Source of the DNA: Candidatus Brocadiia bacterium
GTDB taxonomy: Bacteria > Planctomycetota > MHYJ01 > JACQXL01
Reading direction: 5' to 3'
DNA length: 11,109 nucleotides
Assembly (NCBI GenBank): GCA_020062035.1
Contig: JAGUXD010000177.1
Location: 1-11,109 of the forward strand
Of the stretch, positions 9,272 to 10,769 are shown in pieces. Made by a program: the position numbers and the translations under genes. How positions within the stretch are numbered: the first letter of the stretch is position 1; every line of letters begins with the position of its first letter. The notes beneath the pieces are model-generated. The model made no database searches. It was not told the DNA's origin and worked only from the letters and a program-made list of their open reading frames with translations.

Positions 9272-10332
9272 GGAATAAAACAGAGGTCGGCTTTTATACG
9301 ATAAGTAAAACCGGATAGTAATTTTGCGGCATTTTCTAAATCAGATAAGACGATTACTTCAACCGGCGTATGCATATAACGATTTGGCACACTGATTAAG
9401 CCCGTAGCAACCCCTGCCTTGTTCAGTTGGATTGCGTTTGCGTCTGTTCCAGTAGCACCCGGTGCGGCTTCTATCTGATAAGGAATTTTCTCTTCTCTGG
9501 CTGTCTCTACCAGTTTCTCAAACACTACCGGATTTATATTAGCGCCACGGGAAATAACTGGTCCTTTGCCTGACTTTATTTCCCCTGTCTTTTTAGAATT
9601 AGAATCAGGATAATCCGTAGAATGGGTTACATCAATGGCGATACCGACATCAGGGCTAATGCCATACACGCTTGTTTTAGCACCTCTTGCGCCTATTTCT
9701 TCTTGAACCGTGGAGACCCCAAAAATAGCGGCTTTGGGTTTTTTTCTGGAAAGTAATCTCAACATCTCGGCAACAACAAAACTACCCATCTTGTCATCAA
9801 ACCCACGGGCAACGACAAAGTCGTTCTTGAGACGCTCAAAACCGGCAATATTGGTGATAGGGTCACCGATGGAAATGACCTTTTCTACTTCTTTTTTATC
9901 TTTGGCGCCGATATCAAGCCAGAGTGTATGAATCTTTGGCATTGCCGCTGATTTTCGTTCTTCTTCCTCCATCAAATGGATTGCCTTTTTACCAACCACT
10001 CCTAAGATAGGTCCTTTTTTAGTATGAATATAAAACCTCTGTCCCGGCAAAAGAGCGGTATCTATTCCACCAATCGCTCTAAAGTAAATATAGCCCTTAT
10101 CATCAATGTAATTCACCATTAAGCCGATTTCGTCGCAATGTCCGCAGAACATTATTTTGGGCCTGCCCCTGGGATTTATCACTGCGATAGCATTACCGTG
10201 GACATCTTTTTTCACCTCGTCCACAAAATGATTTACATATTTACACCAGATTGCTTGCGCGGGTTGTTCAAAACCAGAAGGGCTTGGTGTGTTCGTCAGT
10301 TCTTTTAAGAAATTTAATGACCTTTGTTCCAT
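9268..10332 (-). CDS. M42-family metallo-aminopeptidase (TET/FrvX-like)
   Basis: The cytosolic dinuclear-metal aminopeptidase has 354 residues from the ATG at 10332. I prefer that start to the ATG 18 nt upstream because GAGAGGAG sits 6 nt before it. Expected ligands and catalytic residues are visible: His65 and Asp67 in GHCDEIG, the Asp179/Asp180 pair in GFDDKMG, Glu211 and Glu212 in VQEEIGARG, Asp234 in AIDVTHS and His321 in RYMHTP. The family forms dodecameric tetrahedral particles that trim short peptides; some members were once labelled endoglucanases. Overlap with hutI suggests a joint role in peptide and amino-acid use. Its 5' end lies only about 40 nt after the tRNA remnant at 10376, with no clear promoter between, so transcription may come through the tRNA cluster. 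Confidence 0.95.
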   Translation of the reverse strand: MEQRSLNFLKELTNTPSPSGFEQPAQAIWCKYVNHFVDEVKKDVHGNAIAVINPRGRPKIMFCGHCDEIGLMVNYIDDKGYIYFRAIGGIDTALLPGQRFYIHTKKGPILGVVGKKAIHLMEEEERKSAAMPKIHTLWLDIGAKDKKEVEKVISIGDPITNIAGFERLKNDFVVARGFDDKMGSFVVAEMLRLLSRKKPKAAIFGVSTVQEEIGARGAKTSVYGISPDVGIAIDVTHSTDYPDSNSKKTGEIKSGKGPVISRGANINPVVFEKLVETAREEKIPYQIEAAPGATGTDANAIQLNKAGVATGLISVPNRYMHTPVEVIVLSDLENAAKLLSGFTYRIKADLCFIP

Positions 10333-10360
10333 ATAAAACTCCTCTCTCATATTAAGAAGC

Positions 10361-10373
10361 GTCCCGCTGGGAT
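10361..10373. repeat. GTCCCGCTGGGAT palindrome between the tRNA cluster and the M42 gene
   Basis: This is the third 13-bp copy of the GTCCCNNTGGGAT palindrome. Its last base coincides with the final A of the CCA encoded after the tRNA 3' half. Confidence 0.5.
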
Positions 10374-10375
10374 GG

Positions 10376-10408
10376 TGGGCAGTACAGGATTAGAACCTGT
10401 GACCTTGC
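10376..10408 (-). pseudogene. 3' half of a split or disrupted tRNA
   Basis: Read on the - strand, this segment contains the 3' strand of an anticodon stem (GCAAG), a 3-nt variable region (GTC), a T arm (ACAGG-TTCTAAT-CCTGT) and a 3' acceptor strand ACTGCCC followed by A and an encoded CCA (10373-10375). No D arm or 5' acceptor strand precedes it locally. The matching 5' half is at 10632-10670, more than 220 nt upstream on the same strand, and its acceptor GGGCAGT pairs perfectly with ACTGCCC. The T loop has T at position 57, normally a purine, and the variable loop is short, which are signs of decay. The T arm otherwise matches the neighbouring tRNA at 10484-10558. Confidence 0.7.
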
Positions 10409-10419
10409 GGAAAAGAGGT

Positions 10420-10454
10420 GCGGAGAAAAACCGCAAGAGAGGGTTTTTCTCCGC
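10420..10454. repeat. Perfect 13-bp hairpin inside the tRNA-splitting segment
   Basis: GCGGAGAAAAACC (10420-10432) pairs with GGTTTTTCTCCGC (10442-10454) around a 9-nt loop. Alternatively CCGCAAG at 10431-10437 can pair with CTTGCGG at 10404-10410, which on the - strand would give the tRNA 3' half a surrogate anticodon stem. No T-run follows on either strand. Confidence 0.65.
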
Positions 10455-10483
10455 TTATCCCTTAATCAATTTTGATAATAGAA

Positions 10484-10558
10484 TGGACGGTACAGGATTC
10501 GAACCTGTGACCACTTGCGTGTCGAGCAAGTGCTCTAAACCAACTGAGCTAACCGTCC
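10484..10558 (-). tRNA. tRNA-Val(GAC), with unusual C33
   Basis: This 75-nt cloverleaf is complete on the - strand. It has acceptor GGACGGT/ACCGTCC, D stem GCTC/GAGC with loop AGTTGGTTTA, anticodon stem CTTGC/GCAAG with loop TCGACAC, variable region TGGTC, T stem ACAGG/CCTGT with loop TTCGAAT, and discriminator A73. CCA is not encoded. Positions 34-36 read GAC, the valine anticodon, consistent with A73. Position 33 is C, where U is almost universal, so the amino-acid call is somewhat less secure. The gene lies between the two halves of another tRNA. Confidence 0.85.
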
Positions 10559-10581
10559 AGTTAAACTCCTTCCTTCTTAAT

Positions 10582-10613
10582 AGGGGAAACCCCTTTGTTG
10601 AGTAGTTTCCCCT
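10582..10613. repeat. 9-bp hairpin upstream of tRNA-Val inside the tRNA-splitting segment
   Basis: AGGGGAAAC (10582-10590) pairs perfectly with GTTTCCCCT (10605-10613) around a 14-nt loop. On the - strand it lies between the tRNA 5' half and the complete tRNA. A purine-rich AAGGAAGGAG (complement of about 10568-10577) follows it, but no reading frame uses it. Confidence 0.55.
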
Positions 10614-10631
10614 TACCCCTTTCCGCAACAA

Positions 10632-10670
10632 TGTCGAGCAAGTGCTCTAACCGGACTGAGCTAACTGCCC
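10632..10670 (-). pseudogene. 5' half of a split or disrupted tRNA
   Basis: Read on the - strand, the segment holds acceptor strand GGGCAGT, TA, D stem GCTC/GAGC with loop AGTCCGGTTA, the 5' anticodon-stem strand CTTGC and loop bases TCGACA. The expected GCAAG does not follow; TTGTTGCGGAAAGG does. Eighteen bases (TAGAGCACTTGCTCGACA) are identical to the complete tRNA at 10484-10558, but the acceptor stem differs and pairs 7 of 7 with the 3' half at 10376-10408. If the two halves were joined, the loop would again carry GAC, with C at position 33. Confidence 0.7.
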
Positions 10671-10694
10671 ATTATTTAATCGCCACGGCGGGAT

Positions 10695-10767
10695 TGGAGA
10701 TGAGGGGACTTGAACCCCTGACCTGCTGATTGCGAACCAGCCGCTCTCCCAACTGAGCTACATCCCC
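10695..10767 (-). tRNA. tRNA-Ala(CGC)
   Basis: This 73-nt cloverleaf has acceptor GGGGATG/CATCTCC, D stem GCTC/GAGC, anticodon stem GCTGG/TCAGC with loop TTCGCAA (anticodon CGC at 34-36), T stem AGGGG/CCCCT and A73. The acceptor contains G3-U70, the identity element recognised by alanyl-tRNA synthetase, which independently confirms alanine. CCA is not encoded. The 5' end is 2 nt from the stop codon of birA, so the tRNA must be cut from a birA read-through transcript unless a promoter lies within birA. Confidence 0.95.
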
Positions 10768-10769
10768 AT

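Follow-up and report, generated by a model that had tools for sequence, protein, structure and literature searches.

The window, i.e. the whole stretch of DNA that was analysed (11109 nt), is an entire contig (C73) of the metagenome-assembled genome G000, which holds 1.19 Mb in 211 contigs and has a completeness estimate of 64%. Read along the - strand, the tRNA region of the window runs from a tRNA-Ala(CGC) through the 5' half of a tRNA-Val, the first of two hairpins, the complete tRNA-Val(GAC) and the other hairpin to a tRNA-Val 3' half that encodes CCA (Table 1). We refer to the interrupted gene as the host and to the complete tRNA as the guest. In G001 and G002, too, a Val gene or a piece of one comes after Ala(CGC). 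The sole ORF of at least 80 aa that overlaps the insert between the halves runs antisense to the tRNAs (93 aa, 10324-10605, + strand) and is probably a spurious reading. No transposase, integrase or endonuclease was found within the insert, which is too short to code for an integrase, and of the eight other window proteins scanned five belong to non-integrase families and three are without a match. No Rfam match to an intron RNA family was obtained in the region, where a search extended to E = 1 returns two tRNA matches alone.

Table 1. Features of the window and GIY-YIG ORFs at other loci; positions refer to the window unless a locus is named.
Feature	Position	Strand	Remarks
tRNA-Ala(CGC)	10694..10768	-	intact; directly upstream of split tRNA-Val
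Host tRNA-Val(GAC), 5' half	10632..10670	-	39 nt; stops in anticodon loop after ...TCGACA
Host tRNA-Val, 3' half with encoded CCA	10373..10409	-	T57; 3-nt variable region (GTC)
Guest tRNA-Val(GAC)	10483..10559	-	complete, no encoded CCA; ARAGORN; Rfam RF00005, 69.6 bits
Element E1 (type 1)	10577..10631	+	9-bp hairpin and tail CCCCTTTCCGCAAC; model match stops 2 nt from 5' half
Element E2 (type 2)	10403..10458	-	13-bp hairpin, loop CTCTCTTGC, tail TTTTCCGCAAGG; tail overlaps start of 3' half
Terminal inverted repeat, right arm	10405..10413		TTTCCGCAA (- strand sequence)
Terminal inverted repeat, left arm	10620..10628		TTGCGGAAA (- strand sequence)
GIY-YIG ORF	L011 1566-1829	-	
GIY-YIG ORF	L116 1632-1916	-	
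GIY-YIG ORF	L236 1106-1426	+	
GIY-YIG ORF	L238 1032-1337	+	
GIY-YIG ORFs, two	L215 2941-3228 and 3302-3595	-	

Host halves and guest tRNA

A sequence-only reading of this DNA had described a complete tRNA-Val(GAC) nested between two tRNA halves with complementary acceptor and anticodon-stem strands, together with two strong hairpins, a break in the anticodon loop, an encoded CCA, a T57 and a short variable loop, and each of these features was found as described. The acceptor strands of the two halves (GGGCAGT/ACTGCCC) pair at 7 of 7 positions and the anticodon-stem strands (CTTGC/GCAAG) at 5 of 5, and the CCA is encoded at 10375-10373, next to the 3' half (10408-10376). Neither half was called by ARAGORN or by the Rfam tRNA search. 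When the halves were joined from ...TCGACA (10632) to CGCAAG (from 10409), ARAGORN called a tRNA-Val(GAC); a join one base shorter, at GCAAG (from 10408), was called tRNA-???. The first join places the insert, 10410-10631, between positions 37 and 38 and gives it a length of 222 nt, against the separation of about 223 nt given by the earlier reading.

The 5' half is identical to the Val(GAC) of G008 at 38 of 39 positions. The 3' half matches the Val(GAC) of G008, the Val(GAC) of G001 and the Val(CAC) of G008 alike, at 29 of 31 positions, a count that omits the GCAAG which the element tail also has. An A5-U68 acceptor pair is common to the two halves and is missing from the Val(GAC) of G001, G005, G006 and G008; since it recurs in the Val(CAC) of G008, this pair is weak evidence for the origin of the halves in one gene. 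Both halves were likely derived from a single gene, but need not have been, because the Val(CAC) of G008 resembles the 3' half no less closely, A5-U68 included. The T57 and the 3-nt variable region of the 3' half suggest decay of the host, and on their account the old gene is probably dead.

The guest is presumed to be functional. Its only other match within G000, which is 64% complete, is a tRNA-Ile. Over the stretch in which the host 5' half matches the Val(GAC) of G008 at 38 positions the guest matches it at 34 of 39, which indicates that host and guest are different alleles. Guest and halves form imperfect direct repeats (90% over 29 nt and 88% over 40 nt), while the outer ends of the insert are inverted repeats. 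The predicted fold of the region brings the halves together around the guest and is more stable than that of shuffled sequences (z -6.7, 0 of 200 shuffles as good), with the complete tRNA and the hairpins contributing to this value.

Palindromic elements at the joints

Both hairpins of the insert are perfect, with arms of 9 bp in E1 (10582-10590/10605-10613) and of 13 bp in E2 (10420-10432/10442-10454). The terminal inverted repeats, which the earlier reading took to bound the segment, pair at 9 of 9 positions; they are not its strict boundary, because the right arm reaches four bases into the start of the 3' half. The tail sequence GCAAG is also the anticodon-stem 3' strand of both tRNA-Val copies, and this shared sequence may guide the joining or may merely mask the exact boundary. 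A candidate loop-to-tail pairing, possibly a pseudoknot, has five pairs kept in all of the three sequences compared, one of these pairs being changed on both sides.

A search for the right-hand hairpin identified two E2 copies in G003, a genome of the same family, one adjoining the 3' end of a tRNA-His and the other the 5' end of a tRNA-Leu. The three type-2 elements (window E2 and the two from G003) were aligned and padded with N as model R1, which was searched against 99 genomes, G000 included. Outside its members, and apart from weak matches, R1 matched G005:C10 (E 3.9e-7), G007:C99 (6.5e-4) and the window E1 (0.013 for the whole genome), and the window E1 was also matched by a further model, R2 (E 0.0018). 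A type-1 model, R3, built from the window E1, the G007 copy and the E1 of G005, recovers two type-2 copies, those of G003 and the window (4.4e-5 and 1.0e-3), and types 1 and 2 are therefore related. The segment that the earlier reading proposed to look for elsewhere has homologous elements in G003, G005 and G007. Across 392 genomes of the phylum (G000 included), R2 at E <= 1e-4 matched G000, G003, G005, G007 and G032.

The accepted copies number seven, in four of the nine genomes of the order. All seven present the same end, with the tail near CCTTTTCCGCAA, at most about 2 nt from a tRNA or a displaced gene piece or overlapping it, and six of the seven meet tRNA genes by this end. These homologous copies lie at non-orthologous sites in the four genomes, namely the Val, Pro, His, Leu and acyl-CoA dehydrogenase loci. 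Beside the two G003 copies BLAST detected no displaced fragments, and the neighbouring tRNAs are intact. At one locus of G003 (L196, 4202-5562, - strand) four features stand in a row: a gene for a phage integrase, a displaced piece that by eye resembles tRNA-Arg(TCT), an E2 element and the tRNA-Leu.

Several candidate copies were rejected. The G032 match to R2 is a GC-rich hairpin with no tRNA within its 3060-nt locus, and nine weak model matches were set aside after inspection (L164, L165, L168, L169, L193, L194, L254, L255 and L256); a tRNA-Arg is about 100 nt away from L169, but no paired stem is seen there by eye. A gapped tail pattern searched across 23 genomes of the class was found in G007 only, and a mismatch-tolerant loop pattern gave 151 matches in G000 against 137 in the control, and thus no sign of further loop copies in that genome. 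A viral origin was also rejected: three scans of viral contigs gave nine pattern stretches, which we took as chance, with no ARAGORN tRNA in any of the nine loci and the hairpin plus tail absent from all nine by eye. Two observations concern coding genes. In G000 (C142; L200, about 1351-1377) an HflX-like GTPase gene contains a match to the E2 loop and inner stem (E about 0.002-0.01), which is either chance or a partial in-frame E2 copy; the partial copy in the HflX-like gene (L181) was left out of the copy count. In G007 a GMP synthase gene (L195, 2438-4048, - strand) has an apparent in-frame palindromic insert, seen by eye, and palindromic elements inside coding genes occur elsewhere.

A nested tRNA-Pro in a second family and an element at a protein gene

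The arrangement recurs in G005, a genome of another family in the same order. The sequence around the R1 match on contig C10 (locus L162) was read as the 5' half of a tRNA-Pro, a hairpin like that of E1, a complete tRNA-Pro(GGG) called by ARAGORN, E2 and the 3' half of a tRNA-Pro, with the parts in the same order as in the window, both elements in the same orientation and the break again in the anticodon loop, its exact base being uncertain by 1-2. Measured from tail to tail this cassette has 290 nt. The G005 host carries a palindrome inside the D-arm of its 5' half, an acceptor mismatch between its halves and, as in the window, a 3-nt variable region in its 3' half. Of three joins of the halves, one was called tRNA-Ala(GGC) by ARAGORN and two were not called, which indicates that this host has decayed. 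The recurrence with homologous palindromes indicates that the window arrangement is more than chance.

The G005 tRNA-Pro locus follows a glyoxalase-family gene, and a matching gene precedes a complete tRNA-Pro(GGG) in G003, G006 and G008, 500-850 nt apart. By BLAST, the tRNA-Pro(GGG) genes of G003 and G006 have no tRNA piece beside them, and the one of G008 is accompanied by a different 3' piece; within G005 the tRNA-Pro locus has no second match at E <= 0.001. Uninterrupted Pro(GGG) and Val(GAC) genes occur in similar surroundings in genomes of the same order, none of which is a close relative. Ahead of the tRNA-Pro genes of G006 and G008 we noted by eye repeated tRNA-like starts that are accompanied by palindromes. 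Downstream of the tRNA-Pro(GGG) of G008 (L236) and G002 (L239) the T-arm and acceptor end of a tRNA-Pro occur a second time, and the T-loop of this copy seems to be broken by a TCCGCC..GGCGGA palindrome, again by eye.

At the G007 locus a complete acyl-CoA dehydrogenase gene (389 aa) is followed by a type-1 element and then by approximately the last 34 codons of a diverged second copy. The two gene ends agree at 83 of the 102 bases, and the protein they encode is identical; the 19 differences, with the protein unchanged, indicate that diverged working alleles were brought together with the palindrome at the joint. Compared with the gene of the congener G005, the two ends match at 82 and 83 of 102 bases, so that either end differs from the other as much as from the G005 gene, and no element follows the dehydrogenase gene of G005. 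Upstream of the G007 dehydrogenase neither an element nor a 5' piece was seen, and this case is one-sided.

tRNA fragments and GIY-YIG genes

Fragments were sought by BLAST of each tRNA against its own flanks (700 nt, E <= 0.01), for 36 complete tRNAs at 25 loci of the order and 30 at 25 loci of other families of the phylum; these loci are not random, having been chosen because they matched tRNA-Val, tRNA-Pro, the dehydrogenase or the element. Eight of the 66 tRNAs have pieces of themselves nearby (11 pieces). Six of these tRNAs (8 pieces) belong to the order and two (3 pieces) to the other families, where the loci resemble one another, and fragments are not clearly more frequent in the order than in the other families. 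All 11 pieces lie on the strand of their tRNA, and their polarity is nested throughout: upstream pieces are 5' pieces (4 of 4) and downstream pieces are 3' pieces (7 of 7). Three pieces come from the two nested loci, and without these the nested polarity holds in 8 of 8. A laxer count (450 nt, E <= 0.05) gives 10 of 35 and 4 of 30 tRNAs with pieces, and no piece on the opposite strand. The tRNA-Pro 5' half of G005 fell below the BLAST limit and was recognised by eye. Several displaced pieces carry other palindromes (TCCCGAT..ATCGGGA and similar). In two genomes of another family (L025 and L026), two and one near-identical copies of the 3' end lie downstream of tRNA-Val(CAC).

A phmmer search with two queries against the ORFs of all loci examined identified six GIY-YIG ORFs at five loci, all in this order (G005, G001, G008 and G006), and all six match Pfam GIY-YIG (Table 1). 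Five of the six have a same-strand tRNA downstream at a distance of at most 164 nt, and the sixth lies 48 nt past a tRNA-Gly and 417 nt ahead of a tRNA-Pro; this neighbourhood is partly a matter of sampling, because many loci were chosen around tRNAs. None was found in the 25 tRNA loci of the other families. At the G005 tRNA-Val (L011) and the G001 tRNA-Ala (L116) a 5' tRNA fragment is followed by the ORF, the stop codon of which is a TAG within the complete tRNA. This position suggests that cutting of tRNA genes may start their replacement. The loci with GIY-YIG genes are without E elements and the E loci are without GIY-YIG genes; in the window no phmmer match was obtained at E <= 1e-4.

Discussion

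A complete tRNA gene lies within a decayed gene for the same amino acid at two loci, one tRNA-Val and one tRNA-Pro, in two families, and homologous palindromes stand at the joints. We consider it probable that an older tRNA-Val of the window was split and replaced by a cassette that brought its own tRNA, and is now a relic, rather than that the halves form a spliced or split tRNA. We propose that a 222-nt cassette with a complete tRNA-Val(GAC) would have split the anticodon loop of the older tRNA-Val(GAC) at 37/38, bounded by inverted copies of E1 and E2 whose tails form its outer ends, so that the palindromes would be the ends of a mobile unit. Insertion would begin with a break in the anticodon arm, possibly made by GIY-YIG endonucleases, and the break would be filled by a donor segment carrying the same isoacceptor. 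As the window cassette has no GIY-YIG gene, the endonuclease step is one that we infer. The incoming tRNA would have taken over the tRNA supply, and the insertion would therefore have been tolerated while the old gene decayed to two flanking relics. Recurrent replacement of tRNA genes by such nested new copies would leave 5' pieces upstream and 3' pieces downstream.

A further-reaching version of this proposal is tentative, and we rate it as possible but doubtful: palindrome-ended, non-coding tRNA cassettes (222 nt in the window, about 290 nt in G005) would insert at 37/38 of cognate genes, driven in trans by nucleases such as those of the GIY-YIG type, and would repeatedly overwrite the isoacceptor gene of the cell as selfish copies. 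Several results count against the proposed replacement itself, namely the equal closeness of the 3' half to Val(GAC) and Val(CAC), the absence of a transposase, integrase or endonuclease from the insert, the few E copies in the order, the one-sided copy at a protein gene in G007, the intact tRNAs beside the two G003 copies, the similar fragment frequencies in the order and in other families, the separate occurrence of GIY-YIG genes and E elements, and the incompleteness of G000.

The main rival, which we judge unlikely, is that tRNA-Val copies stood in tandem, and that the outer two, perhaps Val(GAC) and Val(CAC), were cut by separate element insertions while the middle one survived. The two genes do lie close together in G006 and G008, the 3' half is equally near to both and shares its A5-U68 with the Val(CAC) of G008, and other palindromes repeatedly interrupt tRNA pieces in this order. 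However, the halves correspond, the 5' one carrying the anticodon GAC and the 3' one the GCAAG that matches it, with no loss at 37/38, and in G005 both halves are tRNA-Pro and meet in the same loop. Tandem decay should also give upstream 3' pieces, whereas all 11 fragments are nested in polarity. Of the three origins listed by the earlier reading, our results favour insertion of a palindromic element carrying a tRNA, through the G005 replicate, the homology of the palindromes and the fragment polarity; recombination between tandem copies fits less well, and an intron-like or split tRNA is unsupported.

It is improbable that the locus is the shrunken remnant of a tyrosine-integrase island, in which integration at the anticodon loop restored the tRNA and left a complete tRNA with displaced pieces. 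This hallmark of islands, a restored complete tRNA with displaced fragments left behind, is present at the locus, and the Islander report describes islands that split their target and restore the tRNA, with the anticodon loop among the crossover sites and a displaced fragment as a typical trace (PMC4383910). Partial tRNA copies from such integration are reported to be widespread (PMC9897764). The direct repeats between guest and halves would also agree with an island, as would the phage integrase of G003, which is next to a copy of E and a displaced piece resembling tRNA-Arg. Against this, the usual outcome in the Islander report is one displaced fragment per tRNA, seldom the 5' one, its table giving 159 with a 5' fragment against 3760, which we take as 3' (PMC4383910). 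In the window both halves surround a complete tRNA between inverted palindromes, no integrase lies between them, and the arrangement is found in two families.

A functional split or intron-containing tRNA, the halves of which would pair via the flanking inverted repeats and be joined after removal of the inner tRNA, is very improbable. The acceptor and anticodon stems pair, the CCA is encoded, the flanking repeats are complementary and in the predicted fold the halves enclose the guest; the break lies at 37/38, the site favoured by tRNA introns. On the other hand, the window 3' half has T57 and a 3-nt variable region, a variable region that the G005 counterpart shares, and the latter further has a D-arm palindrome, an acceptor mismatch and joins that are called tRNA-Ala(GGC) or nothing. 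No Rfam intron was found in the region, and ARAGORN allowing introns of up to 400 nt reports none. We discount an assembly chimera almost entirely, since the same architecture with homologous elements occurs in an independent genome of another family, although the window belongs to a fragmented and incomplete metagenome-assembled genome and repeats such as tRNA genes often cause misassembly.

Bacterial mobile DNA often lands in tRNA genes, and in the cases known to us incoming DNA restores one end of the tRNA gene. At the present loci, which belong to two families and concern two amino acids, the older gene is split around an entire cognate tRNA and each joint carries a palindrome. Should the cassette prove mobile, very small selfish units could swap essential tRNA genes. 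The proposed replacement, if true, would account for the fragments around live tRNA genes and would offer a simple system for testing how such units choose the anticodon loop.

Comparison with known systems

Archaeal split tRNAs have halves divided at the anticodon loop and complementary flanking sequences, and the window resembles them in both respects; it differs in the apparent decay of its host halves, in the complete tRNA that separates them and in being known from DNA alone. Rickettsia palindromic elements and similar families are short dispersed palindromes in or beside genes. The E family is likewise made of short palindromes in or beside genes; unlike them, it meets tRNAs by the same end in six of seven copies, forms inverted pairs around a tRNA and has few copies.

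T4 SegB, a GIY-YIG homing endonuclease in a tRNA gene region, adjoins tRNA genes as the ORFs described here do, and targets DNA of that region (PMC2988022). In contrast to SegB, the present ORFs are at chromosomal bacterial loci, lie between a 5' fragment and a complete tRNA in G005 and G001, and are only predicted to cut. In the window, as in tyrosine-integrase islands and prophages (Islander, PMC4383910), the incoming DNA splits its target tRNA and restores a working one, and a fragment is displaced. The window is unlike such islands in its 222-nt length, its lack of an integrase, the displacement of both halves and the inverted palindromes at the outermost positions. Our literature search, the coverage of which excludes most subscription journals, returned no report of one tRNA gene enclosed whole by the halves of another and flanked by palindromic elements.
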